From NCBI GenBank assembly GCA_001750645.1, contig MEIF01000003.1, positions 1-64,000 on the forward strand: 64,000 nucleotides of DNA. The letters run 5' to 3'. The notes beneath the pieces were generated by a model. It was not told the origin of the DNA. It did no database searches and saw only the letters and a list, made by a program, of their open reading frames with translations. Positions 21,719 through 40,490 of this stretch are shown here, piece after piece. Each line of letters starts with the position of its first letter. Position 1 is the stretch's first letter. This stretch comes from Gammaproteobacteria bacterium AqS3. GTDB lineage: Bacteria; Pseudomonadota; Gammaproteobacteria; MEIF01; AqS3. The position numbers and the translations under genes are program-made.

Positions 21719-22236
21719 GGCTGGATCTGGAAATGACAGGTCTGAACCCCCTAAAAGAGCGCATCATCGAGATAGCGGTGCTGATCACCGATGCCGACCT
21801 GCACATCGTCGCCGAGGGCCCCGACCTGGTGATCCATCAGGACGATGAGCTGCTCGACAGCATGGACGAGTGGAACACCGAGACCCACACCAAGTCCGGG
21901 CTGGTTCAGCGCGTGCGGGAGAGCGTCCTCGACGAGCGCACCGCACAGGATGCCGTGCTGGATTTTCTGCGGGCTCACATCCCCAGGGGCAAGATCCCGC
22001 TGTGCGGCAACAGCATCTCGACGGATCGGCGCTTCCTGCGCCACTACATGCCCAAGGTCGACTCCTACTTCCACTACCGCATCGTCGATGTCAGCACCAT
22101 CAAGGAGCTGGCCAAGCGCTGGCGCCCCGATGTCATTCAGAGCTTCAGCAAGACCGAAAGCAATCACCGGGCGCTTGAGGACATCCGCGCCACCGTCGAG
22201 GAACTGCGTCACTACCGCTCGCTCTGGCTGACCTGA
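21679..22236 (+). CDS. orn: Oligoribonuclease
   Basis: AWLDLEMTGLNPLKERIIEIAVLITDADLHIVAEGPDLVIHQ, CGNSISTDRRFLRHYMPKVDSYFHYRIVDVSTIKELAKRW. Confidence 0.96.
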   Translation: MGDKANKNTEHLAWLDLEMTGLNPLKERIIEIAVLITDADLHIVAEGPDLVIHQDDELLDSMDEWNTETHTKSGLVQRVRESVLDERTAQDAVLDFLRAHIPRGKIPLCGNSISTDRRFLRHYMPKVDSYFHYRIVDVSTIKELAKRWRPDVIQSFSKTESNHRALEDIRATVEELRHYRSLWLT

Positions 22237-22328: not shown

Positions 22329-23700
22329 TCAGAACAGGTACTGTCTCAGCTCAACGCCGATTTTGTTCTCGGGTTTCTGGCCCTGGGTGATGCGCTGCTC
22401 GCCGAAGAGGCGCGCCTCAAAGCTGTCGGTTCTCATGAACTTCAGCCCGCTCGTCAGTCGGCTCGAGGCATAGCTTCCGCCGCTGAAATTGTATTCGGCA
22501 AACGGGGTCAGCAGGCCGCCGAAGGCGTCCATGCCGTAGCCGAGCCGGGTGGCGAGCACCATGCGCTGGGCTGACTGCTGCATGCGCTGCAGATCATGCT
22601 GATCCAGATTGAAGGCCTCTTCGCGGTCGAGCAGGTCGCTCTGCTGAGCGCCCCACTCCGGCCCCAGCGACATCGAGAATCCACGCCCGACAGCATCGGA
22701 CGAAGCCACCCTGAGCGTCAGGCTCATGCCCCATTCGTCAAGCTCGACCTTGTCCTCCTCTCTGAGCGTCTGGCTTCCGCCGGCCTGATCCTCTGTCTCG
22801 TCCTCGGCGCTGTGGCTGGTCAGCCAGTGCCCGTTCAGATCCAGGCTGAAGCGGCTGCCCGGAGTGGTCATCTGCACAGCCGCAGTCACCTCGACACCCG
22901 AACCGGTGATGCCGTCGCCCTCGTCCTGACGCACCGCCACCCCGAAACGCGGAGCCAGGCGCATGCCGCTGCCAAAGCCGCTGTGGGCCAGCTCAAGACC
23001 GGCGCGCATCTGCTGGCTGTCGACGTTGAGCTCGCTGATCGATGGCGTTGCGGCGGAGCTTCCCGTCGTCATGCGACTGGAGGCGATGCTGCCGGTCGCC
23101 GACAGGGTCCCGCCGATGCCGATCTGCAGGAACGGCCAGCGCCCGCCGACCGATGTCATGTCCATCGTCAGCTTCGCCGTGCCCTCGTTTGAGTTGATCT
23201 CCTGCACCTTGACCTCGCCGATGCCGAAGCCGTAGACGACGCGGACAGAAGCGCCGCTCTCGCCGGTGATCTCGATGTAGGGCATGTAAGTCCTCAGCTG
23301 GGTCTCGATGCGGGCGGAACTGTTCCGGATCTTGTAGTCGGCCTCGCCGCTGCTGCGCGAAGCTGCAACGCCGTAGAGCCAGCCGTTTTCAGTGCGCTGG
23401 TCATAGCCCAGCCACACCGCACTCTGATTGCCCTCGTAGGGGACCTGCTGAACGGTGCCGGAGAACTCGCGCTGCTCGCTGCTGCCCCAGAGGCTTGAGG
23501 TCGCCATCGAGGAGCCGCCCGAATCGGCGGATGAGGTGAGTGCGTAGGTAAAGCTGCCGAGCATCTGCATATCGTTGCTGAACCCGCCCGCATTGGGCTG
23601 GGCGAATGCCGGCCGACCCTCGCGCAGCGGAATGCTGCCGAGCCACTCCGCACTCTGGCGGTTGACACCGAACAGATCGTCCCCGTAGCGATTCGACTGC
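22329..23700 (-). other. C-terminal autotransporter-like beta-barrel domain of the giant protein (domain limits approximate)
   Basis: WLGYDQRTENGWLYGVAASRSSGEADYKIRNSSARIETQLRTYMPYIEI...; alternating hydrophobic strands; terminates GVELRQYLF with C-terminal Phe typical of outer-membrane barrels. Confidence 0.7.
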
Positions 23701-26700
23701 GAGAACTCCTCGCGCGTGCGGGCCATCTGAGCGAAATGGCCGACCAGATCGTCAATGCCCGATTGATCCAGCGCCACATTGCGGCCGCCAAACTGCACCC
23801 GGCGGGCGCCGGCCGAGGCGTCAAAGCGCCGGCTGATCACGTCGAGGGAGCCCGCCAGTGTGGCTCTGGCAACCGCCGCCAGCACCTGCGTGGCACCGTC
23901 TCGCTCTGCGGTCGCCTTGTCGTTGTCGGTCACTGTGACCTCGATTGCGCATGCCGGATCACGGCCTTGAGCCTGGCAGTATCCCTCGTAGTCACCGCCG
24001 GCGACCCTGTAAGTGACCGTCGCCTTACCGTCCTCAAGGTCGTCATCCTCGATCGCAATGATGCTCACCGTCTGCGGTGTTTCCCAGTTGTCCGTCCTGA
24101 AGGTCATGCTGCCCTGGGCGCCGCTGGTAAACGAATCGGCATCAACGGCCAGGAACGTCGGTTCGGGGTTGGCAAAGGTCACCGTCACATCGGCAGTCGG
24201 CTGGCTGGCCATCGAGACGGTCAGGTCGACCGAGTTCCCCTCCTCCAACTCCACCAAGTACGCCGAGATCATGAGTCCGATACTTTCGTCGTCATCGACC
24301 GTGACCTGCAGCGTGCTCGCCTGTTCGCTGCCATAGCCGCCGCCGGTCGGCGACAGCGTGACGGTGACATCCTCGTTCTGGGCATCGTCATCCTGAACAG
24401 CGCCGATGGTCAGTGGCTGGGTGATATTCCAGTTCGAGGTTGTGAAGGTGAGGCTCGGTGCAGAGGCAGAAACCGCCCCGGCATCGGGGTTGGTCACCGC
24501 GACGGTCACGTCGTCACCGACGGGCGGTGAGGCCAGCTTGACCGTGAATGAGACCGAGTTGCTGTCGGAAGCGGAATCCTCCTCCAGGCTCAGCGGTCCC
24601 GTCGTCGACAGGATCAGGCCGGCGGTGCGGTCATCGTCCCAGACCTCCACCGCAACCGTTCCGCTCTCTACACCGCCATAGCCGCCTCCGGAGGCGCTGA
24701 CAGTGATCGTCGCCTGCCCGTCTTCCGCATCGCTGTCATCCGCTGCGTTAATCATCACGGTCTGGGCGTCCTCCCAGTTGTCTGCGGTAAAGGTCAGACT
24801 GGCCGAGTCCGGTTCAGCAAACGCGACTTCCGTGTCGCTGCTGGTGATGCTGACGGTCACGTCATCTGTCGGCTGGCTGCCCAATTCCACCGTAAAGGTT
24901 CCAACCTCACCCTCGGTCAGCGTCAGGGAGCTTGTCGACAGTGTCATTTCAATGTCTTCATCGTCGGTCACGGTGACCGTCACATCGACATCAGCCACAT
25001 TTCCGTAGTCAGCACCGGATGCCGACAGCGTGACGGTGACCTCCTCGTTCTCGGCATCGTCGTCCCCGACACCTGTCACCGTGATGTTCTGCGTGGCATT
25101 CCAGTTGTCTGCGGTAAAGGTCAGGCTGGCTGTGGAGACCGACACAGCGCCAGCATCATCGCTGGTGATGCCCACGGTCACATTGCCGCCGACCGGCTGC
25201 GTCCCGAGCTTGACATTGAAGGTGCCGGTGCTTCCCTCGTCAATACCCAGCGCATCACCGGACAGCTCCAGGCTGGCCGTATCGTTGTCGTTCACCGTAA
25301 CCCTCAGGGTCACCTCGTCCGCGTCGGCGTACTCGCCGCCCGATGCGGAGATAACGATGTCCGCCTCGTCATTGTTCCCATCCACATCCTCTGCTGCTGA
25401 GACGGTGACGGTCTGGGGGCGGTTCCAGTTGCTCGCATCAAAAGTCAGCGTGTTCTGATTGCTGGCCGTGCCGGTGTCGGTGTCGACCGTCACATCGGCA
25501 TTGCTGGGCTGCGCCAGCGTCACCGTTACATTCTCCGTCGGCTCGGCGGCCAGCTGCACATCAAAGGTGCCGGTGCTTCCCTCGGTCACCGTCAGCGACG
25601 TTGGCGAGAGCGTCAGGCCGGCGGTGCCGCTGTCCCGGACCGACACCGCAACGGTTTCCGATTGACCGGCGTAATTGCCCCCTGTTGTTGTCACAGCCAC
25701 CGTCACGGTGACGCTTTCATTAACCGCATCGTTGTCTTCAACCCGGGTGATGGTGACCGTCTGGGGAGTGCTCCAGTCGTTCGGAGAGAAGGTCAGGGTG
25801 GCTCCGGCAGTCACCGCTGCCGCCCCAGGATCGCTGCTGGTGACCGTCACGGCTGTCGCCTGATCCGGTGCTACGGAGAAGACCGCCGTAAAGCTGCCCG
25901 AAATTCCGCAGTCGCCGTCTGCCACCTCGCACAGCGCCAGCGATGTCTCGGTCAGAACAATCCTCGGGATGTCGTTCTCGCTCACGCTGACCGTCACATC
26001 CTCGCTCAGGCCGGCGTAATCGCCACCCGTCGCCGAGAGGGTGATGGTGATCTCCTCCTCAGTGATGTCTCCATCTTCAATGGCCGTCACCATGACCGTG
26101 CGCGCCGTGCCCCAATCATCCTGGGTGAAGGTCAGCGTGGTTTGCGGACCGGCGGTGTCTGCATCGGTGTCCACCTCCAGAGCTTGGGACGGATCGGTCG
26201 AATCGTCCGAATCGTTGTCGGCAAGGGTCAGATTCAGCGTGACCGTCGCCGTCGGCCGGCTGGACAGGGCAACGGTAAATTCTCCTGAGGCTCCGCCCTC
26301 GATAACCGACAGCGTTTCAGCGGACAGCACCAGCTCGGCCTCGTCGTCGTCAATCGTCACGGCAACATTTTCGGTCACCCCGGCGTAATTTCCGCCCGCA
26401 GCGGTAAGGCTGACCGTGATGTCCTCATCAGTCGCATCGGTGTCCTCGGCCGCGCTGATGGTGACCATCTGGGGCACATTCCAGTTGTCTGTCCTGAAGG
26501 TCAATTCCAGGCCGGGCGTCGAGATCTGCAGCAGGTCGGCGTCGGCGCCGGCGCTGATCGACACCGTGACCGCTTCTGTCGGCAGAAGCGACAGCTCCAC
26601 CGTGAAATCCCCGGCCGCCCCGCCTTCACTCAGCGAGAGCGTCGACTGGGACAGGAGCAATCTCGGGACATCCTTGTCGATGATCCTTATCGACAGGGTG

Positions 26701-29700
26701 GTGTCGTCCAGATCGTCGTAATCGCCGCCCGATGTGGTGACATTGACCGTGGCACTGCCGGTATCCTGATCCTGGTCGACAGCCGCCCTGAAGACGACAT
26801 CCTGGGCGGTGTTCCAGTTGTCCGTCGTGAAGGTGAGCATGCTCTGATCGCCGTCATCTGTCGCATTCGTGTCCAGCGTCAAATCGGTGTTGGACGGCTG
26901 CCCCAGCGTCACCGTTACATCCTCCGTCGGCTGCGTCAGCAGCTTCAGGGTCACAGTTTTGTTCTCGCCCTCAAGGATGGACAGCGGCGACTCGGACCAC
27001 ACCAGCCCCTGAACTTGGGGATCGGTCACGGTCACGGTCACCGTACCGGTGACATCGCCGTAGCCCGAGTTGAGGGCCGAGATATTGATGGTGGCGCTGT
27101 CGTCCACCGCATCGGCATCGGCGACTGTGTTCACCGTCACCGTCTGGGGGATGTCCCAAGTGTCCGCGGTGAACTCCAGCATGTTCTGATTGCCCGCATC
27201 CGAGGAGGTGTCCAGCGTCACATCGTTGTTGGACGGCTGCTCCAGCGTGACCGTCACGGGACCGTTCGGATCCACCCTCAGACTGACATCAAAGGTCTGG
27301 TTTTCACCCTCGCTGATGCTCAGCTGCGAGGCTGTGAGGGTCAAGCCGGGTGTGTCGGTATCGGTCACGCGCACCAGCACCGTCGCGCCCGCACTCTCAT
27401 AGCCGCCGCCCGTTGCCGACATGGAAATCGAGCCGGTTTCGTTCTCTGAGTCCTCATCGTCGCGCACACGCACTGTGACGGTCTGGGGGGTGCTCCAATC
27501 GTCCGTCCCAAAACTGAGCGTCCTCTGATTGCCGTCGGCTACCGTATTGGTGTCCACCTTGATGTCGGTATTGTTGGGCTGCATCAGCGTCACCGTCACA
27601 TCCCCCGCCGGCTGAGTGGCCAGAGCAATCGTAAAGGTACCCGTCATCCCCTCTTCAATGGCCAGGCCCGACGCAGGGACACCGACATCCAGTTCGGGGG
27701 GGTCGTTATCCGTCACCGAGATCGTCATGGAGTCCTCAGCGCTGCCATACCCGCCGCCGGATGCGGTCAAGTTGACCGTGAGCGGGCCCTCATTCGAGGA
27801 ATCGACATCGTGTCCCGCAGAAACCGTGACTCTCTTGCCTTCATTCCAGTCGTTTTCGCCGAAAGTCAGGGTGTTCTGATTGCTGTCGGTTCGGGGGTCC
27901 GTATCCAGCCTCACATCGTCATTGTCCGGCTGCGACAGCGTCACCATCACCTCCCCTGTCGGCTCATTTCTGAGGGCCACCGTAAAGAAACCGGTGCCTT
28001 CCTCTGCGACAGTCAATGCCTTGGTGGACAGCGTGAATCCGACCGAGTCATCGTCTTCCACGGTCACGGCGACAGTGTCGGTATCGCCGCCATAGCCGCC
28101 GTCCGCAGCCGAGACCACGATGTTGAAGGTCTCATTCTCCAAGTCGACATCGTCCACCGGGGTGACCGTCACCGACTGCGGCGTGTTGTAGTTCGCCCGG
28201 GTAAAGGTCAGGCTGCTCTCCGAGACCGTTGCCGCATTCGGAGCCAGGCTGGCGACTGACACGGTCACGTCCTCTGTCGGCTGGGTCGCCAAGGCGACCG
28301 TAAAGCTTCCGGCCGAGCCGCCCTCGACCAGGGCCAGGGTTCTCGGCGACAGCACAAACCCGCTGTCGTCGTCATCCACGACCGACACCGTGTAGGTGTA
28401 GCTGATGAACCTATTAGAGGACTTCTCAGGAGGAGGCGGCGTGGAACCGTCATCTTTGGGTGCAGGGTAAGTGAGGCTGTAACCATCCAACTTAATCTCA
28501 ACCCGCTCGTCATCCATATCCGCATCCTCAACCGATGCGACGGTGACGGTCTGGGCGGTGCTCCAATTCGTGCTGGTAAAAATCAGATTGGCCGGCGAAA
28601 CCGTGGCTATTGCGGTGTCATCGCTGGTCAGATCAATCTGCACAGCCCGCAGCGAACTGCTGTAAGTCCTGGTCAGCTTGATATCAAAAGTGCCGGGCGT
28701 TCCCCCCTCGGTCACCTGCAGCGAGGGCTTGGACAGATTGAAGCCGATCGCCCGCAGATCCCGCGGCGCCGCCTCAAGCGTCACTGTCACCGTGCGCGAC
28801 ATTTTGTATTGGTCAACTGCACCCTGACTGACCGGAATGCGGCTTTGGCCATTCAGGATGACATCGACCGTCGTTTCAGTCGTGCTGGTCGATGAGGTGA
28901 CCGTGACGGCCTGGGGGGTCTCCCAGTTGCTCGAGTTAAACGTCAGGATCCTCGGCGTGGCCGTCGCGATTTTGAAATCCTCGCTGCTCATGTTCGGTAT
29001 GACTTGGACATCGCTGCCGGGCTGGGCGGAGAGTGCAACCATAATGACGTTGCTCTGACTCCCTGCGGTCACAACCAAGTGGGGTCTGTCCAGAGCCAAT
29101 TCCGTTGACGTCGCATTCGAGTTGTCTCGCGTGACTTCAACCGAGAAGACCCGCGTCGCCCGGTACTGATCCGCACCCGTGACGGCGGGTGTGGTGGCGG
29201 ATTGCAGAGTGACATCAAAATTTTCTGTCGCCGGCCTTCTGGTGTCGGTAAACGGGGTGATGGTCACCGTCTGTACCGTGTTGTAGTTGCCCGGGATAAA
29301 GTTCAGCGTGGTCTTGTCGAGTGTCAGAACGCTTGACAGCGTGACTCTGACATTTTGGGTGGGCGCGGTGCTCAAGCTCACATCAAAGGTGTTGGCCGCA
29401 GTCCCCGCTGCCACGACAATGAAATCTGAGGCCGCGCCCCTGTCGATTTCCTTGACGCCGGTCTGGGTTTCCTTGTAGTTGGTCTCAAGCACATGCAGAC
29501 GCACTTTCGCGGGCTTGATGTCGGTGTGATCTCCGCCCTCGGCCGTGATGTAGAGCGTGGTGCGCTCCTCATACAGATTGTCGTCCTGGGGAGCGCTCAC
29601 CTCAACCGTCTGTGCAGTGTCCCAGTTGTCGTCGGTAAATTGCAGAATGACGTCATCCTGATTGCTGCCGGCCGTGTCGCTGGTGGAAGTCAGCCCGAAA

Positions 29701-32700
29701 TAGCCGCCGCCGGGGCCGACGCGGACATTAATGGTCGAGGACTGTCTCTGTCCGGCCGAGGGCTGCTGTGACAGCCTGAGGCTGAAGGATGCCGTCCCCC
29801 CCTCGTTCAGCAGCAGCGATGTATCCGAGACCAGAATCCCCCTGCCATCGTCGTCCGTCACGGTCACTGTGACCTCCCCGTACTGATGGTCATAGTTCGC
29901 TCCGGAGGCCGAGAGATTGACATAGAACTGCTCATCCTTAGCGTCGTCATCTGCATTGGGCATGACGGCCACAGTGCGCGCGGTATTCCAGTTGACCTTG
30001 GTGAATTTCAGCGTGCTCTGGTTGCCCGCCCGGGTCGTGTCGGTGTCAAGCGTTGCATCAACGGTGCCGCCGAAAAAGGCCTCGAAACTGGGCGTCACGG
30101 TGACGGTGCCGGTCGGCTGGCTGCCCAGCTTGACCGTGAAGGTCCCGGCCACCCCCTCGACCGTCGTCAGTTCTGTCTTGGACAGCACCAGTTCGACCTT
30201 GTCATTGTCCTGGGTGGTCACGACCAGAGACCTCGAGAAGCTGTAATCGGTGCCCGCCACCGACATCGAAATCACGACCCGCTCATTGGCTGCATCGCCG
30301 TCTTCGACCGCCTGGAAGCTCAGCGTCTGATCGGTGCTCCAGTTGCTGGTGGTGAACGTCAACTCCCCTGAGGCCGGATCGGTGATCGCCACCGCACTGG
30401 GATCCGAGCTCATCGCCGCCACAGTGACATCACTCTCAGGCTGACTGGCCAGTCGAATATCGACCATATAGGTCTGACCCTCGGACAACGCGCGCTCATA
30501 GCTGCCGATGGTCAGAGCGAGGGCGCCGTTGTCCGTCACCGAGACCACCACGCTGTCTTCCACCCCGTAGAGGCCGTAGCCGCCGCCGGTTGCGCTCATG
30601 CTGATCGTGGCGGTCTCATCGTCGCTGTCAGAATCCAGGGCCGCCTTGACGTATACGTTCTGTGCGACATTCCAGCTGGACTGTAAGAAATTCAGCGTGG
30701 TCTGATTGCCGTCGGCATCCCTGTCGGTGTCCAGCGTCACCTTGGTATTGCTCGGCTGCATCAGCGTCACGGTCACATCGCCGAGGGGTCGAGCCCCCAG
30801 GGCGACCGTGAATGAGCCGGTGCCCCCCTCGTTCAATGACAGTGCGTCGTCAGAGAAGTCCAGGAAGTAGGAATCATCGTCGGCAACCGAAACCGACACG
30901 GATGCAGCCAGGCCGTCGTAATCGTCGTCGCCTGAAGCGGTGAGACTGATTGTCACTTTTTCATTGTCAAAGTCGTCGTCCTCGGCTGCGGTCACGCTGA
31001 CTGTCTGTGCGGTATTCCAGCTGGATGAGTCAAACGTCAGACTCGCCGGCGAAACCCGGGCGATGCCGATATCCCTGCTGAGCACGCCCACGGTGACCGT
31101 ATCGGTCGGAGGGGAGGACAGCTCGACCGTGAAGGTTCCCGCAGAGCCCCCTTCATTGATCGAGACACTGGTGGCGGACAGCAGCAGAACTGGCTCATCT
31201 TCGTCAATCACCCTGACATTGACGGTGGCCATCTTGCCGCTGTAGTCGGAGGTCCCCGAGGCGGTGAGCGTGACGCTGGAATCGTCATTCACCGAATCAA
31301 GGTCCTCGCCGGCAGTGACCGTCACGGTTTGAGTGTCACTCCAGTTGTCGTTGTCAAAAGTCAACTGGGGCTTGTCGACGCTGAGGTCGCCGCCCGAGTC
31401 GGGTGCAACCGCCACGATAATCGTATTGCCCGCACCCGGCGCCGATGTCAGCCGAACTGCAAAAGTCTTCGCTTCGCCCTCCCGGATCGTCAGTGCTGCT
31501 GACGACAGAGAGAGGCTGTTTGGGATGTCCGCATCAGTGATGTTTACCGTCACCGTCTTGCTCTGCCAAGAGACGCCGGCTCCACCACCACTGGCAACCC
31601 TGAAGGTCACCTGCGCTGTCTCATCGTCCATGTCAAGATCGTCAAAATCCCGCACAGTTTCTATCACGACATTTTGGTAGGAATCCCAATCGGCGGGATC
31701 AATTCGCCGCTGCAGAGTATCGCCGGAGCCCGGAGCCCCTCGGATCCTGATGCTTTCGTCGCTGGTTGAAATCTCCATGACGACTGTTGTTGCACCTGCA
31801 GGAGGCTGGGCGGAAAGCTTGAACCTGATGGTGCCATTTTCCCCCTCTTTTATGGTCAGGGAAGAAGCCGGATTGGTCACAATACCGAGCGGACCGCCGG
31901 TGTCCTCAATGGTGACCGAATAATCCAGCGTTTGGCCGTCGTAGCCGCCCCCGGTGGCGGTGACTCTGACAACCGCCGAATCTTCACTGAAGTTGATATC
32001 AGGCAAAGTAAACACTTTGATCGCCTTGGGCGCGCGCCAACTATAGGATCGGATGCTTACCGTGTTCTGATTGCCCGAGGTATTGAGATCAGCGTCAAAC
32101 TCGAGAATTTTGTTGGCGGGGGAAACCTGAGTCACCGTCAGAGTGACCGTGCCGCTCGGACGCCTGCTCAGCCGAACGCCCAATGTGCCCGAATCTGCCA
32201 CCTCTTTCCCCTGCTCTGTGACAGTCTCGGACAGATTCAGATGCTTTGCCGCCGTCGACGGGGAATGTCTCAGGTAGGAAGGTATCCGATCATCGTCGGC
32301 CACGCTCACCTGCACAGTGCCGCCGGCGCTGTCATAACCGCCGCCCGAGACAGAGAGGGTGATGTCCACGTCCTCATTATTGCTATCCGCATCATCCACC
32401 GGTGTGACTTTCACCTTCTGCGGGTTGTTGTAATTTGATGTGGTGAAGGTCAGCTGCGAAGAGTCTACTGTGGCAGCCCCAGTGTCATCGCTTGCCAGAT
32501 CGACCGTCACATTGCCGGTCGGCTGCCTCGTCAGCCTCACCGTAAAGGTGCCATAACCACCGCCCTCATCCAGCGACAGGCTATTCGCAGAGACCTTCAG
32601 ACCAAGGCTATTGTCATCGTCCACGCTCACCGCCACACTGCCGCCGACATTGTTATAACCGCCGCCCGAGGCAGAGAGAGTGATGTCCACGTCCTCATCA

Positions 32701-35700
32701 TTGATATCCGCATCAACCTCCGGCGTGACGGTCACCGTCTGCACCGTGTCGTAATTCGCCTGAGTAAAGATCAGCTGCGCAGGGGATACTGTGGCAGCCC
32801 CAGTGTCATCGCTTGCCAGATCGACCGTCACATTGCCGGTCGGCGACATCATCAACCTCACCGTAAAGGTGCCGTCTGCGCCGTCCTCCTCCAGCCACAG
32901 ACTGTTCACAGAGAGTTCCAGGCCAAGGCCACTGTTGTCGTCCACGCTCACCTGCACAGTGCCGCCGGCATCGTCATAACCGCCGCCCGAGACAGAGAGG
33001 GTGATGTCCACGGCCTCATCATTGATATCCGTATCATCCACCGGTGCGACGGTCACCGTCCGCACCGTTTCGTAATTCGCCTGAGTAAAGATCAGCTGCG
33101 AAGGGGATACTGTGGCAGCCCCAGTGTCATCGCTTGCCAGATCGACCGTCACATTGCCGGTCGGCTGCCTCGTCAGCTTCACCGTAAAGGTGCCATCATC
33201 ACCGCCCTCATCCAGCCACAGGCTATTCGCAGAGAGCTTCAGACCAAGGCTATTGTCGTCATCCACGCTCACCGCCACACTGCCGCCGACATCGTCATAA
33301 CCGCCGCCCGAGGCAGAGAGGGTGATGTCCAGGTTCTCATCCCTGAGATCCGCATCATTCACCGGTGAGACGGTCACCGTCTGCACCATGCTGTAATTCG
33401 CCTGAGTAAAGGTCAGCAGCTCAGGGGATACTGTGGCAGCCCCAGTGTCATCGCTTGCCAGATCGACCGTCACATTGCCGGTCGGCAGCCTCGGCAGCCT
33501 CACCGTAAAGGTGCCGTCCACGCCGGAGCTCTCAATCAGTGCCAGGCTGTTCACAGAGAGTTCCAGACCAAGGGCACTGTTGTCGTCCACGCTCACCGCC
33601 ACACTGTCGTCGACATCGTCATAACCGCCGCCCGAGGCCAAGAGGGTGATTTCCAAGCTCTCATCATCGAGATCTCCATCATGCACCGGTGTGACGGTCA
33701 CCGTCTGAGCCATGTCGTAATTTGACCGGGTGAAAGTCAGCTGAGATGGAGACACTGTGGCCGCATCATCGTCCTCACTCGCCAAGTCAACGGTCACATT
33801 GCCGAGCGGCTGAATCGCTAGCCTCACCGTAAAGATGCCGTCTACGCCGGATCCCTCAATCAGTTCCAAGCTGTTCGCAGAGAGCTCCAGAGCACCGGCA
33901 TCGTCGTCGCCCACGCTCACCGCCACGCTGCCGCTGACATCGTCATAACCGCCGCCCGAGGCGGAGAGGGTGATGTCAACGTTCTCATCCCTGAGATCTG
34001 CATCATCCATAGGCGTGACGGTCACCGTCCGGTTGGTGTCGTAATTTGATGCGGTGAAATTCAGGGTGGATGGGGAGATCGTCACGGCATCCCCGTGGTT
34101 GCCCTCCACTGCAACTGTTACCCTGCCAGTTGGCGTGGCCGCGAGTTTCACCTCAAAGGTCCCCGCAGCACCGCCCTCGCTCAGCTGCAGACTTGTAGCG
34201 GAGAAATCCAGAGATCCGGTGTCATCGTCATCCACCGACACCGACACCGACAGGTTGCCGAACATTCTGTCCAAGTCAGTCTGTGAAAGGCCACCGCCCG
34301 ATACGGAAAAGGAGATGTTTACGTTCTCATTTGCGAAATCGCCATCGTCCACCGGGGTGACAGTGACCGTCTGCGGCCTGTCGTAATTTGATGCGGTAAA
34401 GGTCAGCGAGGCGGAGGGAACTGTGGCTGCACCCGCATCGCTGCTGGTCAGCGAAACCGTCACATCTGCACTCGGCTGACTGTCCAGCACCACCGTAAAT
34501 GTGTTGGGACTGCCTCCCTCATTGATCGACAGGCTGGTCTCGGAGAGCACCACATCAAACCTGTCATCATCAATCACCGTCACCGGAAGCTTGACGGGCC
34601 TGCCGTTGAAACCAGCAAGGTTAGTGTTGTTAATGTTGCTGGTATCTACATTCGAGGACAAGGTGATCTCCACGCTGTCATCCAAGCGATCGCTGTCATC
34701 CACCGGGGTGATGGTCACCGTCTGAGGCGCATCGAAGTTCGAATTGTCAAAGGTCAGCGAGGCGGGGGAGACTGTGGCGATATCCGTGTCGCCGCTTGTC
34801 AGCGAAACCGTCGCATCTCCAAACTGAATCGATTGATTCATTGCCACCGTGAAGGTTGCGGAGCTGCCGCCCTCCGTCAGCGACAGACTGGACTTGGAGA
34901 GCTTCAGACCGAGCTGGTCATCGTCATCCACTGTCACCGCAACCGTTTCAGTGGCGCCGCTGTGACGACCCCCCGATACAGACATGTAGATAGTCACGCG
35001 CTCATCCATGATGTCTTCATCAATTACCGGAGTGACAGTGAATTTTCGGTGGTCGGTTTCTTCGTCCGAGCCGTAGACCATCGAAGACGGTGTGACTCTG
35101 ACGGCTCCCTCGTCGCTGCTTCTCAGCGATATGACTGTATTCGGATCCGGATCTCCCCCCAACGTCCAAGTGACATCAGTACCCCAAGTATTCTCGATCA
35201 GGGAGACTTGCTTCGTTGTCGGGTTGTGGATGGTGAAACGTCCATCTTGGACATCGTTATCCTCGGTTATCACACTCACCCTGCCCGTGACATCGTCATA
35301 ACCGCCGCCCGATGCGGAAATATCGATGTTCACGTTCTCACCGCTGGAATTCCAATCCTCTATGGCAGCGACGGTCACCGTCTGCTCCGTATCGTAATTT
35401 GATGTGGTGAATGTCAGCGAGGACGGGGAGGCCGTGACGCTGCTCGTGTCAGAACTCACCAGCGAAACTGTCACGCTACCACTCGGCGGCTGCCTCAGCT
35501 TGACTGTGAAGCTATCGGTATTTCGCTCGGCCACCGTCAGCTTGGTTGCGGAGAGCTCAAAGATAGCAGCGTCGTTGTCAACCACCGACACGGCCACCTC
35601 GCCCGTGACATCGTTGTAATTGCTCCCCGATGCGGAGACGGTGGAGAGGGCGATGTTCACGTTCTCACTGTCAAGATCCGCATCGTCCACCGCAGTGACG

Positions 35701-38700
35701 GTCACCGCCTGCGTCGTGTCGTAATTTGATGTGCTGAAGGTCAGCGAGGACGGGGAGACCGTGACGCTGCTCGTGTCAGCACTCGTCAGCGAAACCGTCA
35801 CATTCTGGCTCGGTGTCACCCTCAATTTCACACTGAAAGTGCCGGCTGTCTCCTCAGTCACCCTCAAACGGGTTCTGGAGATATCAAGGACGGGAATGTC
35901 GTCGTCGGTCACCGACACGGCCACTCTGCCGGTGGCGTCGTCGTAATTGCCGCCCGATGCAAGGAAGCTGATGTTCACGTCTTCATCATCAGAATCGCCG
36001 TCGTCTATCGCGGTGACGGTGACTGTCTGCGGCTGACGGTAGTTCGATGGGGTGAACTTCATTTCAGACGGGGAGACCCTGATGCTGCTCATGTCAGAGC
36101 TCAACAGCAAGACCTCCACATCCGATTGCGGCTGCTGTTCATTCAATGTCACCGTAAAGGTTGCGGTGCCCCGCTCAGTCAGCATCAGGCTGGTTGAGGA
36201 GAAATCAAAGCCGGTGCTGACATCGACCACCGACACCGCCACTGTGCCCGTGAAATAACTCCCGATGCCCAATGCAACGAGGTTGATGTTGGCGTTCTCG
36301 CTGTAACTGTCACTGTCCTCAATCGCGGTGACAGTCACTGTCTGTGTCGTGTTGTAGTTGTTCCGGGTGAAGGTCAGCGAGGACGGGGAGACCGTGACAT
36401 TGCTCGTGTCAGAACTCACCAGTGAAACCGTTACGTCAGAGCTCAGGGCTCCGGGCCTGGTAGAGCCGCCGCCAATGATCGGCACGGTGGTGGGCGACGG
36501 CGGCAGCGGCGGCTGGGTATTCAGCTTCACTGTGAAAGTCCCGGTGGCCCCTTCGTTGATGCTCAGGCTGGTCGAGGACAAATCGAGGCCACGGTCGTCA
36601 TCATCCTCAACCGCAACCGCGACACTGCCAGTGACGCTGCCATAACCGCCGCCCGACGAGGTCAGAGAGATGCGCAAGCTCCTGTCACCAGGATTGTCAT
36701 CCTGCACCGGGGTGACTGTGACCGTCTGAGCCGTGTCGTAGTTTGACGGGGTGAAGGTCAGCGAGGCTGGCGATACTGTGGCCGCTCTCGAATTGCCGCT
36801 TGCCAGCGAAACCGTCACATTCGCAGTCGGTAGGGTCGCCAATGCCACGGTAAAGTTGCCGGCGCTGCCGCCCTCAGTCAACGACAGATTGACTGAGGAG
36901 AGAGCAAAACCCAAATCACCCACGCTCACCGACACGCTGCCGGTAGCTTGGTTATAGCCGCCTCCGGTTGCTGAGAGATTGATGCTCGCAGTCTCATCTC
37001 CTGAATTCGCAGCCTTCGTGGTGGCGACGGTTGCCGTCTGAAAGCGACCGTAATTCAACGGGGTGAATGTCATCGAGGCGGGGGAGACCGTGACAACGCT
37101 GGTGTCGCTGCTTACCAGCGAAACGGTCACATTCCCGCTCGGTCTCGCCTGCAGCCCGACCCTGAAGGTGTTGGGATGGCCGGCCTTGCGCAGCAGCACA
37201 GAGGTCGTGGGGAGCTCAAGCTTCCTCAGCTCGTCGTCATTCACTGATACCGTCACGCTGCCGGTGACATCGTCGTAACCGCCGTCCGATGCGGTAAAGA
37301 AGATCTGCACGGACTCATCCACAGAGTCGCTGTCATCCACCGGGGTGACGGTCACTGTATGCACCACCGGGGTGATGACGTTCACATACTCACCCTTCTT
37401 CAAGGAGGATTCCACCCTGGTGTAGTAGTCTTGCAGGACGAAGGTCAGCGAGGCGGGCGATACCGTGACTGCACCGGTATCGCCGCTTGTCAGCGAAACG
37501 GTCACATCCGCAGCCGGAAGCGCAGCCAGCGAGACTGCAAAGGTTTTGGCGCCGCCGCCCTCGTCCAGCGACAACCTGCTCGGCAAAGTAAAGCCGGGGC
37601 TGTCGTCGTCGGTCACGTTCACCGACACGCTGGCGGTGACATCGTCATAACTGCCGGGCTCAATGGCGTTGTCAAAGATGACGGGATTGATGGAGATGGT
37701 CTCACTATCGTCCTGCGCATCCGGATCGTGCCCTGGAGAGACAGTCACCGTCTGTGGCGTGTCGTAGTTCGACAGGTTGAAGGTCAGCGTGCTTGGGGTG
37801 GCCGTGATTGCACCACCTGTATCGCTGGTTACCAGACGAAACGACGCCGCTCTATTGGGCTTGGCCGTCAGCGCCACCGTAAAGGTGCCAGCACTGCCGC
37901 CCTCGGTCAGCGACAGACTTGTTTCAGAGACATCCAAACTGTACGTTTCGTCATCGTCCACCGACACCCGCATACTGCCGGTCGCCCTGCCGTAGCCACC
38001 GCCCGATGCAGTGATCGAGATGGGCCTTAACGTGATGTCATCGGCATCATCATCCTCAAGCGCAATGTCATCGGCATCATCATCCTCAAGTGCATAGACA
38101 GTCACCGTCTGAGTCGTATCCCAGTTGTCCGGGGTGAAAGTCAGCGTGTTTTGATAGCCCGTGACACTGGTATTCGTGTCGACCCTCACACCGGGGTTGC
38201 TCGGCTGTGCCAAGGTCACGGTCACATCTTCGTGAGGTTTGGTAGCCAGCCGAACTGTAAAGGTGTCGTCCTCTCCCTCGTCCAAACTCAAAGAGGATGA
38301 GGACAGCCTGAATGCATTTTCAACCAGCGTGACCGCAATGCTTTCGGATATGGACACTATGGAAGAGCCGTTGTCGCAGGTCGGCGTCTTGTTGGAGCAG
38401 TAAGGGTGGTAGTCCGCACCGGAGGCTGACAGCTCGATTGTCGCACTGAACTGACTGGCATTGACAGTTGAATCGACGAAGACAGTCAGGTACTGAGTCT
38501 GGTTCCAATTCGACTGCGTAAAAGTCATATTGCCTTTATTCAGTGTGACATCAGCGCTGTGCGTGCCCGCTTTCGTTATTCCCACATTAACCTCGCCGGT
38601 GGGTTGAGTGGCCAGCCGAATGCCAAGCCTGCTGCCAGCGCCTTGCGCCACCGTTAAGCCACTGTCCGGGGAGGTGACCAATGCGCGCGTGTCGTTATCA

Positions 38701-39878
38701 GTTGATGTCAGCTTGATGCTGCTTGTGACACCGGAGTACCCGCCGCCTTTACCAAACATATAGATGAATGCGCTTTCATCCCCGGCATCTGAATCCTCCA
38801 CAGGGGTTACAGTCACCGTCTGTGCTCCATAACTTGACGGCGTGAAGGTCAGCCTGGAGGGGCTGACCGTGACCCAGTCGCGGCGAGCTTCGCAGTCCTG
38901 CGGTGACCCTGCTGCCGTAATCTGCCTGCAAAGATACAGCGAAACCTCCGCATCTGCGGCTGGCGCAGTCGTCAGCGCCACGGTAAAGGTTCTGGCATTG
39001 CCGCCCTCGCTTAAGCTGATCGAATTGACAGAGGCTGTCATGCCCCGGGGGATCGGGTTGTCGTTGTCAACAGCCAGAACAGAAATGCTGCTGCCGGCGT
39101 AGCTGCCCGTGGCAGTTACGGAAATCCTTTCAGTGCTGGAGGCACGATCCACATTATCTTCGGGCACCGAAACCACCACCGTTTGGAAGGTGTTCCAGTT
39201 TGAGTTGGTGAAAGTCAGCGAGGTCTTGTCAAGCGTCAAAAGCGCCGAGCTCTCTGAAAAGGTTACGGTCACATTTGATGAGGGCTGCGAAGTCAGACGA
39301 ACCCTGAAGTCTTTGCTGGTTCCCTCGTTTATAGCCAGCGAGGTGGCAGACTCACCCAAAGACAGCGAGGCCACAGAGAGAAAGACGGCGTTTCTGTCAT
39401 CGTCGACCACCGTTACACGAAAACTGGTGTAGGCCAAGGTGAGATCATTGCCGTTTTCGGTTCTGCTATAGCCGCCACCCTTTGGGCTGAGGCGAATGCG
39501 TGCGAAGTCATCGTAGCTGTTGGTATCTGTAGCGGTGGTGACCCGAACCGACTTGGCGGTGTTCCAGTCTGAGGTCGAGAAGGTCAGCGTGTTTTGATTG
39601 CCACTGTCGCTGGTGTCCGTGTCAACCGTCACATCGGTGTTGGACGGCTGCGCTATGGTCACGGTCACGGTCCCGGTCGGCTGCGACCCCAGCGCCACCG
39701 TGAAGTCGGCGTTGCTGCCCTCATTTATGAACAGGTGCTCTGTCGAGACAACCAGCTGACGCGTCTGCCCCCATGCCGAACCCGCCACCAGGACAGACAA
39801 AAATGCCAGCCCCAGCAGCCGAGAAAACCACGCGATCCCTGAACGCCGAGCGCAAAAATCAACCTTTCGGTACGTCAT
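22329..39878 (-). CDS. Giant secreted repeat protein: signal peptide, about 50 Calx-beta-like repeats of about 105-110 aa, C-terminal autotransporter-like beta-barrel
   Basis: Uninterrupted ORF (max 39962, 5877 aa); likely start MTYRKVDFCARRSGIAWFSRLLGLAFLSVLVAGSAWGQ at 39878. Repeats follow LSLxEGGxxGTFTVxLxxxPTxxVTVxLxSxDxxxxTVSPxxLTFTxxNYxxxQTVTVTPVDDxDxxDExxxIxLxASGGGYxxVxxxVxVxVxDDD. Confidence 0.9.
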   Translation of the reverse strand: MTYRKVDFCARRSGIAWFSRLLGLAFLSVLVAGSAWGQTRQLVVSTEHLFINEGSNADFTVALGSQPTGTVTVTIAQPSNTDVTVDTDTSDSGNQNTLTFSTSDWNTAKSVRVTTATDTNSYDDFARIRLSPKGGGYSRTENGNDLTLAYTSFRVTVVDDDRNAVFLSVASLSLGESATSLAINEGTSKDFRVRLTSQPSSNVTVTFSESSALLTLDKTSLTFTNSNWNTFQTVVVSVPEDNVDRASSTERISVTATGSYAGSSISVLAVDNDNPIPRGMTASVNSISLSEGGNARTFTVALTTAPAADAEVSLYLCRQITAAGSPQDCEARRDWVTVSPSRLTFTPSSYGAQTVTVTPVEDSDAGDESAFIYMFGKGGGYSGVTSSIKLTSTDNDTRALVTSPDSGLTVAQGAGSRLGIRLATQPTGEVNVGITKAGTHSADVTLNKGNMTFTQSNWNQTQYLTVFVDSTVNASQFSATIELSASGADYHPYCSNKTPTCDNGSSIVSISESIAVTLVENAFRLSSSSLSLDEGEDDTFTVRLATKPHEDVTVTLAQPSNPGVRVDTNTSVTGYQNTLTFTPDNWDTTQTVTVYALEDDDADDIALEDDDADDITLRPISITASGGGYGRATGSMRVSVDDDETYSLDVSETSLSLTEGGSAGTFTVALTAKPNRAASFRLVTSDTGGAITATPSTLTFNLSNYDTPQTVTVSPGHDPDAQDDSETISINPVIFDNAIEPGSYDDVTASVSVNVTDDDSPGFTLPSRLSLDEGGGAKTFAVSLAALPAADVTVSLTSGDTGAVTVSPASLTFVLQDYYTRVESSLKKGEYVNVITPVVHTVTVTPVDDSDSVDESVQIFFTASDGGYDDVTGSVTVSVNDDELRKLELPTTSVLLRKAGHPNTFRVGLQARPSGNVTVSLVSSDTSVVTVSPASMTFTPLNYGRFQTATVATTKAANSGDETASINLSATGGGYNQATGSVSVSVGDLGFALSSVNLSLTEGGSAGNFTVALATLPTANVTVSLASGNSRAATVSPASLTFTPSNYDTAQTVTVTPVQDDNPGDRSLRISLTSSGGGYGSVTGSVAVAVEDDDDRGLDLSSTSLSINEGATGTFTVKLNTQPPLPPSPTTVPIIGGGSTRPGALSSDVTVSLVSSDTSNVTVSPSSLTFTRNNYNTTQTVTVTAIEDSDSYSENANINLVALGIGSYFTGTVAVSVVDVSTGFDFSSTSLMLTERGTATFTVTLNEQQPQSDVEVLLLSSDMSSIRVSPSEMKFTPSNYRQPQTVTVTAIDDGDSDDEDVNISFLASGGNYDDATGRVAVSVTDDDIPVLDISRTRLRVTEETAGTFSVKLRVTPSQNVTVSLTSADTSSVTVSPSSLTFSTSNYDTTQAVTVTAVDDADLDSENVNIALSTVSASGSNYNDVTGEVAVSVVDNDAAIFELSATKLTVAERNTDSFTVKLRQPPSGSVTVSLVSSDTSSVTASPSSLTFTTSNYDTEQTVTVAAIEDWNSSGENVNIDISASGGGYDDVTGRVSVITEDNDVQDGRFTIHNPTTKQVSLIENTWGTDVTWTLGGDPDPNTVISLRSSDEGAVRVTPSSMVYGSDEETDHRKFTVTPVIDEDIMDERVTIYMSVSGGRHSGATETVAVTVDDDDQLGLKLSKSSLSLTEGGSSATFTVAMNQSIQFGDATVSLTSGDTDIATVSPASLTFDNSNFDAPQTVTITPVDDSDRLDDSVEITLSSNVDTSNINNTNLAGFNGRPVKLPVTVIDDDRFDVVLSETSLSINEGGSPNTFTVVLDSQPSADVTVSLTSSDAGAATVPSASLTFTASNYDRPQTVTVTPVDDGDFANENVNISFSVSGGGLSQTDLDRMFGNLSVSVSVDDDDTGSLDFSATSLQLSEGGAAGTFEVKLAATPTGRVTVAVEGNHGDAVTISPSTLNFTASNYDTNRTVTVTPMDDADLRDENVDITLSASGGGYDDVSGSVAVSVGDDDAGALELSANSLELIEGSGVDGIFTVRLAIQPLGNVTVDLASEDDDAATVSPSQLTFTRSNYDMAQTVTVTPVHDGDLDDESLEITLLASGGGYDDVDDSVAVSVDDNSALGLELSVNSLALIESSGVDGTFTVRLPRLPTGNVTVDLASDDTGAATVSPELLTFTQANYSMVQTVTVSPVNDADLRDENLDITLSASGGGYDDVGGSVAVSVDDDNSLGLKLSANSLWLDEGGDDGTFTVKLTRQPTGNVTVDLASDDTGAATVSPSQLIFTQANYETVRTVTVAPVDDTDINDEAVDITLSVSGGGYDDAGGTVQVSVDDNSGLGLELSVNSLWLEEDGADGTFTVRLMMSPTGNVTVDLASDDTGAATVSPAQLIFTQANYDTVQTVTVTPEVDADINDEDVDITLSASGGGYNNVGGSVAVSVDDDNSLGLKVSANSLSLDEGGGYGTFTVRLTRQPTGNVTVDLASDDTGAATVDSSQLTFTTSNYNNPQKVKVTPVDDADSNNEDVDITLSVSGGGYDSAGGTVQVSVADDDRIPSYLRHSPSTAAKHLNLSETVTEQGKEVADSGTLGVRLSRRPSGTVTLTVTQVSPANKILEFDADLNTSGNQNTVSIRSYSWRAPKAIKVFTLPDINFSEDSAVVRVTATGGGYDGQTLDYSVTIEDTGGPLGIVTNPASSLTIKEGENGTIRFKLSAQPPAGATTVVMEISTSDESIRIRGAPGSGDTLQRRIDPADWDSYQNVVIETVRDFDDLDMDDETAQVTFRVASGGGAGVSWQSKTVTVNITDADIPNSLSLSSAALTIREGEAKTFAVRLTSAPGAGNTIIVAVAPDSGGDLSVDKPQLTFDNDNWSDTQTVTVTAGEDLDSVNDDSSVTLTASGTSDYSGKMATVNVRVIDEDEPVLLLSATSVSINEGGSAGTFTVELSSPPTDTVTVGVLSRDIGIARVSPASLTFDSSSWNTAQTVSVTAAEDDDFDNEKVTISLTASGDDDYDGLAASVSVSVADDDSYFLDFSDDALSLNEGGTGSFTVALGARPLGDVTVTLMQPSNTKVTLDTDRDADGNQTTLNFLQSSWNVAQNVYVKAALDSDSDDETATISMSATGGGYGLYGVEDSVVVSVTDNGALALTIGSYERALSEGQTYMVDIRLASQPESDVTVAAMSSDPSAVAITDPASGELTFTTSNWSTDQTLSFQAVEDGDAANERVVISMSVAGTDYSFSRSLVVTTQDNDKVELVLSKTELTTVEGVAGTFTVKLGSQPTGTVTVTPSFEAFFGGTVDATLDTDTTRAGNQSTLKFTKVNWNTARTVAVMPNADDDAKDEQFYVNLSASGANYDHQYGEVTVTVTDDDGRGILVSDTSLLLNEGGTASFSLRLSQQPSAGQRQSSTINVRVGPGGGYFGLTSTSDTAGSNQDDVILQFTDDNWDTAQTVEVSAPQDDNLYEERTTLYITAEGGDHTDIKPAKVRLHVLETNYKETQTGVKEIDRGAASDFIVVAAGTAANTFDVSLSTAPTQNVRVTLSSVLTLDKTTLNFIPGNYNTVQTVTITPFTDTRRPATENFDVTLQSATTPAVTGADQYRATRVFSVEVTRDNSNATSTELALDRPHLVVTAGSQSNVIMVALSAQPGSDVQVIPNMSSEDFKIATATPRILTFNSSNWETPQAVTVTSSTSTTETTVDVILNGQSRIPVSQGAVDQYKMSRTVTVTLEAAPRDLRAIGFNLSKPSLQVTEGGTPGTFDIKLTRTYSSSLRAVQIDLTSDDTAIATVSPANLIFTSTNWSTAQTVTVASVEDADMDDERVEIKLDGYSLTYPAPKDDGSTPPPPEKSSNRFISYTYTVSVVDDDDSGFVLSPRTLALVEGGSAGSFTVALATQPTEDVTVSVASLAPNAATVSESSLTFTRANYNTPQSVTVTPVDDVDLENETFNIVVSAADGGYGGDTDTVAVTVEDDDSVGFTLSTKALTVAEEGTGFFTVALRNEPTGEVMVTLSQPDNDDVRLDTDPRTDSNQNTLTFGENDWNEGKRVTVSAGHDVDSSNEGPLTVNLTASGGGYGSAEDSMTISVTDNDPPELDVGVPASGLAIEEGMTGTFTIALATQPAGDVTVTLMQPNNTDIKVDTNTVADGNQRTLSFGTDDWSTPQTVTVRVRDDEDSENETGSISMSATGGGYESAGATVLVRVTDTDTPGLTLTASQLSISEGENQTFDVSLRVDPNGPVTVTLEQPSNNDVTLDTSSDAGNQNMLEFTADTWDIPQTVTVNTVADADAVDDSATINISALNSGYGDVTGTVTVTVTDPQVQGLVWSESPLSILEGENKTVTLKLLTQPTEDVTVTLGQPSNTDLTLDTNATDDGDQSMLTFTTDNWNTAQDVVFRAAVDQDQDTGSATVNVTTSGGDYDDLDDTTLSIRIIDKDVPRLLLSQSTLSLSEGGAAGDFTVELSLLPTEAVTVSISAGADADLLQISTPGLELTFRTDNWNVPQMVTISAAEDTDATDEDITVSLTAAGGNYAGVTENVAVTIDDDEAELVLSAETLSVIEGGASGEFTVALSSRPTATVTLNLTLADNDSDDSTDPSQALEVDTDADTAGPQTTLTFTQDDWGTARTVMVTAIEDGDITEEEITITLSATGGDYAGLSEDVTVSVSENDIPRIVLTETSLALCEVADGDCGISGSFTAVFSVAPDQATAVTVTSSDPGAAAVTAGATLTFSPNDWSTPQTVTITRVEDNDAVNESVTVTVAVTTTGGNYAGQSETVAVSVRDSGTAGLTLSPTSLTVTEGSTGTFDVQLAAEPTENVTVTLAQPSNADVTVDTDTGTASNQNTLTFDASNWNRPQTVTVSAAEDVDGNNDEADIVISASGGEYADADEVTLRVTVNDNDTASLELSGDALGIDEGSTGTFNVKLGTQPVGGNVTVGITSDDAGAVSVSTASLTFTADNWNATQNITVTGVGDDDAENEEVTVTLSASGADYGNVADVDVTVTVTDDEDIEMTLSTSSLTLTEGEVGTFTVELGSQPTDDVTVSITSSDTEVAFAEPDSASLTFTADNWEDAQTVMINAADDSDAEDGQATITVSASGGGYGGVESGTVAVEVWDDDRTAGLILSTTGPLSLEEDSASDSNSVSFTVKLASPPVGDDVTVAVTNPDAGAVSASAPSLTFTTSNWNITQPLTIGAVQDDDAQNEDVTVTLSPTGGGYGSEQASTLQVTVDDDESIGLMISAYLVELEEGNSVDLTVSMASQPTADVTVTFANPEPTFLAVDADSFTSGAQGSMTFRTDNWETPQTVSIIAIEDDDLEDGKATVTYRVAGGDYEGYCQAQGRDPACAIEVTVTDNDKATAERDGATQVLAAVARATLAGSLDVISRRFDASAGARRVQFGGRNVALDQSGIDDLVGHFAQMARTREEFSQSNRYGDDLFGVNRQSAEWLGSIPLREGRPAFAQPNAGGFSNDMQMLGSFTYALTSSADSGGSSMATSSLWGSSEQREFSGTVQQVPYEGNQSAVWLGYDQRTENGWLYGVAASRSSGEADYKIRNSSARIETQLRTYMPYIEITGESGASVRVVYGFGIGEVKVQEINSNEGTAKLTMDMTSVGGRWPFLQIGIGGTLSATGSIASSRMTTGSSAATPSISELNVDSQQMRAGLELAHSGFGSGMRLAPRFGVAVRQDEGDGITGSGVEVTAAVQMTTPGSRFSLDLNGHWLTSHSAEDETEDQAGGSQTLREEDKVELDEWGMSLTLRVASSDAVGRGFSMSLGPEWGAQQSDLLDREEAFNLDQHDLQRMQQSAQRMVLATRLGYGMDAFGGLLTPFAEYNFSGGSYASSRLTSGLKFMRTDSFEARLFGEQRITQGQKPENKIGVELRQYLF
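32320..33930 (-). repeat. Block of about five tandem 321-bp (107-aa) coding repeats with high nucleotide identity
   Basis: Anchor cttgccagatcgaccgtcacattgccggtcgg begins at 32491, 32812, 33133 and 33454 (exact 321-bp spacing), with a diverged copy near 33775. Confidence 0.9.
38037..38094 (-). repeat. 30-bp tandem duplication in the giant gene (encodes LEDDDADDI(A/T) twice)
   Basis: gtcatcggcatcatcatcctcaagcgcaat followed by gtcatcggcatcatcatcctcaagtgca; starts 38037 and 38067. Confidence 0.9.
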
Positions 39879-39979
39879 AACCTGCTCCCCCACCCTTGCT
39901 AAGTGACTATCGGAAGTTGATGGAAATAAAAAGTGCCATCCCGCTGCTGCATGACAACCCATGCAACATAAAGCCGCCG

Positions 39980-40049: not shown

Positions 40050-40490
40050 TCAGGCCACCTCCAGCAGGAAAGTCAGCGGGCCGTCGTTGACCAGGGCGAC
40101 CTGCATGTCCGCCCCAAAGCGGCCCGCCTGAACCTCTGCGTGCAGACCCCTGGCATGCCGCAGGGCGTGCTCGTAGATCGGCTCGGCCGCCTCGGGCGGG
40201 GCCGCCGGGGCAAAGCTCGGGCGCAGGCCCTTGCGCGTGTCGGCAGCCAGGGTGAACTGAGAGACCAGCATCAGGGCGCCGCCGGCCTCGATCAGGCTGC
40301 GGTTGAGGCGCCCGGCCTGATCGGGGAAGATGCGGTAGTTCAGGGTGCGCTCAATCAGCCGCTCGGCGACGGCCCCGGTGTCGGATGCCTCCACCGCCAG
40401 CAGGGCGAGGATGCCGGCGCCGATGCGCGCAACCTCCTCGCCGCCGATCGACACCGAGCAGGAGCGCACCCGCTGCAGCAGGCACTTCAA
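40050..40490 (-). CDS. dtd: D-aminoacyl-tRNA deacylase
   Basis: MKCLLQRVRSCSVSIGGEEVARIGAGILALLAVEASDT, NRSLIEAGGALMLVSQFTLAADTRKGLRPSFAPAAPP. Confidence 0.95.
   Translation of the reverse strand: MKCLLQRVRSCSVSIGGEEVARIGAGILALLAVEASDTGAVAERLIERTLNYRIFPDQAGRLNRSLIEAGGALMLVSQFTLAADTRKGLRPSFAPAAPPEAAEPIYEHALRHARGLHAEVQAGRFGADMQVALVNDGPLTFLLEVA

Follow-up and report, generated by a model that had tools for sequence, protein, structure and literature searches.

Between two conserved genes of Gammaproteobacteria bacterium AqS3 lies a single reading frame of about 17.6 kb. What kind of protein does it encode, how would such a chain reach the cell surface, and what would it do there? We addressed these questions for the window, that is, the whole stretch of 64,000 nucleotides analysed (contig MEIF01000003.1, positions 1 to 64,000). 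An initial annotation had proposed a giant surface adhesin or extended stalk, built of Calx-beta-like repeats and exported through its own autotransporter-like barrel; judged by the architecture, an adhesin or stalk is still the most economical reading. We consider it probable that the gene encodes a giant self-exported surface fibre, stiffened by Ca2+ and used for attachment or recognition, and that its owner is a sponge symbiont; at least 44 paralogues, this gene among them, were counted in the genome.

The frame is open throughout, without internal stops, as had been claimed. Translation may start at the ATG at 39878 (5,849 aa) or at an upstream ATG at 39962 (5,877 aa) and stops at 22329. 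The 5,849-aa protein has 842 acidic residues, 279 Lys/Arg and nine cysteines. Its neighbours were both identified where the initial annotation had placed them, with dtd recognised by its Pfam family, and fba is the next gene beyond dtd. A phage origin of the giant gene was rejected, as no match was found in phage records or PHROGs. The longest exact repeat inside the coding sequence measures 70 bp, and the identity of a repeat to its nearest repeat has a genome-wide median of 55% (best matches); collapse of the array during assembly is therefore unlikely.

Table. Features of the giant gene and its flanks (window coordinates).
Feature	Position	Strand	Detail or basis
orn (oligoribonuclease)	21679..22236	+	convergent neighbour
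Giant autotransporter-like protein gene	22329..39878	-	5,849 aa, 611 kDa, pI 4.05
C-terminal autotransporter-type beta-barrel, ~residues 5437-5849	22332..23570	-	PF03797, strand pattern; ends in Phe
Core Pfam match within barrel	22884-23465	-	PF03797
Predicted helical linker after last repeat (ATAERDGATQVLAAVARATLAGSLDVI region)	23856..23918	-	paralogue alignment; low-confidence model
46 tandem Calx-beta-like Ig-fold repeats, ~104 aa, residues 42-5320	23919..39755	-	repeat count, model, Foldseek, column conservation
Repeats 18-22, youngest duplicates of the array	32289..33890	-	73-79% identical to nearest copy
Sec signal-peptide-like segment, residues 1-37	39768..39878	-	read from sequence
dtd (D-Tyr-tRNA deacylase)	40050..40490	-	PF02580; 171 bp upstream, same strand as giant gene

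The repeats tile their region with hardly any gaps. The tandem array is thus present as described, but the count of roughly 50 had to be lowered to 46. A repeat pair, modelled from an alignment of the window's own repeat pairs, reached a pLDDT of 95 and folded into two beta-sandwiches, each with about seven main strands, which bears out the predicted fold. Against the PDB, Foldseek matched this model to the CBD12 structures of NCX1 (3us9; E=6e-5, TMq 0.55 for the pair) and CALX (3rb7). Because Ig domains of ciliary proteins scored equally well, the fold is assigned at the level of the Calx-beta/Ig superfamily only, and it is at this level that the model shows the seven-strand Greek-key sandwich of the CBD type. 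The term Calx-beta-like therefore holds for the fold but not for the family: the Pfam Calx-beta cut-off (PF03160, 27 bits) was unreached, the genome's best three matches scoring 21-22 bits (top 22.1) and falling on repeats of paralogous giants, and we rejected a Calx-beta assignment by Pfam family. When the 46 window repeats were searched for families, Calx-beta was not among the 25 listed out of 35, and an NCBIfam search returned matches below cut-off only. When the repeat profile was compared with structures, no Calx-beta structure, eukaryotic or other, was matched by sequence; a weak similarity to S-layer Ig domains was found.

The ends of the repeats are acidic. Asp was found at column 102 in ~95% and at column 104 in 100% of the window repeats that reach those columns, in line with the DDD-type ends noted initially. 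Across 1,324 repeats, columns 12, 70, 72, 76 and 102 are acidic in 97%, 97%, 84%, 81% and 99%, respectively. The predicted strand order puts these columns behind strand A, within the E-F loop and directly behind strand G, and so in loops of the outgoing pole, where the next domain joins. Calx-beta domains bind Ca2+ at the pole that joins the next domain, and it is therefore reasonable to infer that Ca2+ stiffens the chain between domains. Extender domains stiffened in this way are established for RTX adhesins (PMC7493085).

Both ends of the protein suggest how it would be exported. The N-terminal MTYRKVDFCARRSGIAWFSRLLGLAFLSVLVAGSAWGQ, with its hydrophobic core and Ala-x-Ala-like end, reads by eye as the Sec signal peptide claimed before, and most complete paralogues carry the same features. 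At the other end, PF03797 (Autotransporter) matched the last 537 aa above its cut-off of 26 (32.6 bits, E=9e-8), and the protein terminates in ...VELRQYLF; the barrel and its final Phe, as noted initially, are thus upheld. The same family was matched in 14 of 19 paralogues (best E=3e-11), Phe or Tyr is the terminal residue at 41 of the 44 barrel C-termini of the genome, and the barrel shows a strand pattern of alternating hydrophobicity. A barrel profile matched no solved structure in the PDB. Because a barrel model computed without an alignment was too poor to use (pLDDT 34), we base membership on PF03797, the aromatic terminus, the strand pattern and the domain order, and call the protein type Va-like. 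In textbook type Va proteins, an alpha-helix immediately precedes a barrel of 12 strands; here, by contrast, the linker in the ATAERDGATQVLAAVARATLAGSLDVI region, conserved among paralogues and helical in a model of low confidence, lies about 100 residues ahead of the barrel core. The genome encodes an Omp85/BamA-type protein.

The position of the barrel separates the protein from other giant adhesins. RTX/Bap adhesins (SiiE, LapA, MpIBP, BapP; PMC5466336, PMC7493085, PMC12153261) share long Ca2+-dependent chains of Ig/Calx-beta-like extenders but exit by type I secretion, whereas here the chain is fused to an outer-membrane barrel; an RTX/T1SS adhesin, with C-terminal RTX repeats, a T1SS signal and no barrel, was ruled out on this ground. 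Inverse autotransporters of type Ve (intimin/invasin; PMC6555100) likewise display strings of Ig-like domains through a barrel, but theirs is N-terminal and the passenger C-terminal, and the C-terminal barrel ruled out this class as well. The closest resemblance in order is to BigE, a classical autotransporter of 10,429 aa that was described in 2012 as the largest known (PMC3419190): it, too, has the type Va order, a C-terminal barrel and a giant passenger enlarged by internal duplication. BigE, however, is a single gene in which a common autotransporter passenger domain is replicated eight-fold; here the passenger consists of Calx-beta-like sandwiches, and the genome has at least 44 paralogues. 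Giant autotransporters are thus already known, and it is the scale of the expansion that surprises.

Following established type Va biology, we propose that the Sec signal would bring the chain into the periplasm, and that the BAM machinery would insert the C-terminal barrel, which would let the passenger out. The passenger would remain anchored by its C-terminal end with its N-terminus outermost, displaying a row of 46 Calx-beta-like beta-sandwiches. Ca2+ is abundant in sea water, and could stiffen the chain to a rod of about 0.2 micrometres (estimated at 4-5 nm per domain). Such a fibre would probably act in attachment or recognition, with sponge tissue or neighbouring cells as its most likely targets. 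As no ligand-binding tip domain was recognisable in the window protein, we infer this adhesive or recognition role from the architecture.

The window gene is not alone. Its barrel sequence matches 55 places in the assembly from which the window comes (3.16 Mb, 234 contigs, 95% complete, 1% contamination; no 16S rRNA was found in it). Since the family was counted in 1.13 Mb fetched largely for their matches, the totals are lower bounds: no fewer than 1,397 repeats, which together occupy at least 442 kb, no fewer than 44 barrel C-termini, and at least 532 kb (17% of the genome) in spans from repeat to barrel. A loose first look at the whole assembly gave about 1,670 repeat candidates. Intact frames include ones of 10,469, 9,657, 8,232, 6,049, 5,504 and 5,379 aa, and giants also occur in tandem, for example as three full genes on contig C45. 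Having called the combination of repeats and barrel unusual, the initial annotation understated the case, as the architecture recurs in sponge-associated members of several phyla and occurs in at least 44 barrel genes of this one genome.

Could these genes be products of assembly or decay, with concatenated or collapsed repeats or a functionless, degenerating family? The assembly is fragmented, and many of its contigs end within giant genes. Frames of five to ten thousand codons are nevertheless intact, the longest exact internal repeats of the giant genes are 23-77 bp, young repeats show omega values under 1, and a closed chromosome encodes an 11,062-aa relative; we regard this explanation as highly improbable. 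Near-identical barrel 3' ends were observed on separate contigs (the ends of C13, C174, C193 and C218, and those of C1, C128 and C4), which points to recent duplication or gene conversion and would also be a cause of contig breaks.

The paralogues arose within the lineage by duplication of genes and of repeats within genes. In a tree with 44 relatives, all 28 complete barrels of the genome form one clade (SH-aLRT 100), which indicates a lineage-specific radiation. Repeats found their best match in their own frame far more often than expected (343 of 1,345 versus about 30), most often one to three repeats away. Young intragenic copies gave omega values of 0.56-0.73 (all pairs binned by total divergence) and are constrained, though loosely. 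Among window repeats 19-22, dN equalled or exceeded dS in four of six pairwise comparisons; positive selection on the repeats was set aside in view of the binned values. About nine giants (C161, C124, C5, C39, C19, C187, C231, C27 and C142) share very similar signal peptides of the form CSRQRLLLLVGVLLLGLxFSxPAHGQDTSPGLVLSET despite differing repeats, which suggests that gene ends have been exchanged among them.

The diversity of the family also bears on whether the fibres act among sister cells, linking them by homotypic, Ca2+-dependent contacts or building an S-layer-like coat. An acidic and repetitive passenger would suit this, as would the weak profile similarity to S-layer Ig domains, and bacterial cadherin-like adhesins act in such a way (PMC12153261). 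A single bulk coat protein, however, is unlike a set of diverse paralogues whose barrels are about 40% identical, and we think aggregation or a coat unlikely compared with a fibre for attachment or recognition.

We next consider how rare such an expansion is. By the first-look repeat count, the next highest value among the genomes listed was 71 for 369 genomes of the same class and 127 for 37 genomes chosen as carriers of the barrel family; a sample of 399 genomes from the phylum gave listed counts of up to 40, with at most 21 in any genome that had a match. About 770 further Pseudomonadota genomes came nowhere near this repeat density, and the relatives returned included no second genome from its genus, family or order. 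A contig scan with a narrow alignment of paralogue barrels found no relative, and one with a broader barrel alignment gave 42 loci, distant relatives spread over seven phyla: Pseudomonadota, Acidobacteriota, Nitrospirota, Nitrospinota, Binatota, Gemmatimonadota and Cyanobacteriota.

These relatives come mostly from symbionts of marine sponges, and every one with a checkable source is sponge-derived. The names of some refer to sponges (Ca. Synechococcus spongiarum, Ca. Porisulfidus), and further ones bear prefixes that we take to be those of sponge surveys. Others were obtained from Ircinia sponges (jk18x bins; PMC9531527) or Aplysina aerophoba (bin56, bin107 and bin129; PMC5649159), and Nitrospira SB0677 is the closest match to Great Barrier Reef sponge reads (PMC12203066). 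With relatives of this origin, the window organism is itself likely a sponge symbiont. The same repeat-plus-barrel architecture was found with 19 and 24 repeats in two relatives (L169 and L187), in Nitrospira proteins of 7,013 and 7,052 aa, and in a chromosome-level assembly of a Binatia member, where the 11,062-aa protein has 57 repeats. In Binatia, adjoining giants of 11,062 and 3,156 aa have identical final residues (L210-L212; G753:C1:576165-619007). Some barrel sequences cluster across phyla in the tree, which suggests transfer among symbionts. Two near-identical contigs from one Ircinia project were binned as Binatia and Gemmatimonadetes (L184 and L186); their likeness may reflect misbinning or a very recent transfer.

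A sponge habitat would also suit fibres that serve as eukaryotic-like decoys, mimicking the Ig/Calx-beta surfaces of the host and so sparing the symbiont from sponge phagocytes instead of gluing it in place. Calx-beta has been reported among the enriched eukaryotic-like proteins of Ircinia sponge microbiomes (PMC9531527), eukaryotic-like proteins with autotransporter domains occur in methane-oxidiser symbionts of sponges (PMC6474228), and the barrel relatives are mostly sponge symbionts. A family of dozens of copies with lengths reaching 10,469 aa, however, fits reach or a stalk better than mimicry, and the repeat profile matches no Calx-beta structure by sequence; the decoy explanation is in our judgement improbable, and a fibre for attachment or recognition is preferred.

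Large surface proteins of symbionts have been described before. The sponge-symbiont eukaryotic-like proteins with autotransporter beta-domains, in ORFs of up to 14.6 kb (PMC6474228), resemble the present ones as large repeat proteins, some of which bear an autotransporter domain; they differ in having LRR, cadherin-like and bacterial Ig-like domains, with no Calx-beta-like arrays reported, and in ORFs shorter than the largest here. Apilactobacillus kunkeei devotes 6% of its 1.5-Mb genome to the surface proteins Giant1-5 (PMC12863079) and is likewise a symbiont in which giant surface proteins take up a large share of the genome, but it is Gram-positive and carries five consecutive beta-solenoid genes, whereas here at least 17% of the genome is involved, with another fold and another export route. 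In the open-access papers searched, we found no report of Calx-beta-like arrays on a type V-like barrel at a scale of at least 44 genes and 17% of a genome.

If our reading is correct, a single family of self-exported fibres takes up at least 17% of one symbiont's genome, almost three times the share in A. kunkeei, and the enrichment of eukaryotic-like proteins in sponge symbionts gains a concrete anatomy, a Calx-beta-like array plus barrel, across phyla. Two questions for type V secretion would follow. How could Ca2+-binding-type sandwiches linked into a chain of 600-1,100 kDa pass the outer membrane, and might folding outside the cell, driven by Ca2+, draw the chain through? More speculatively, and with considerable doubt on our part, the at least 44 giant fibres, a diversifying repertoire with varied repeat arrays and tips, might serve as a code for recognising sponge cells or neighbouring symbionts, and would then represent the largest known genome share of one self-exported surface-fibre family.

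Two further observations were made. Repeats of identical score occur in several frames of 750-2,500 aa dispersed round the 1.5-Mb single-contig genome of a member of the same class (G324, C1), which represents another, smaller repeat-protein expansion. In AqS3, a cysteine-containing domain of about 110 aa, for which Pfam gave no match, caps the N-termini of giants on C34, C178, C168, C204, C139, C42, C125 and C78. It follows the pattern C..TNxC...C[IV][EQ]Yxdx.xQRdsGYxxCP, is also repeated within the C168 protein, and may be a tip or binding domain.
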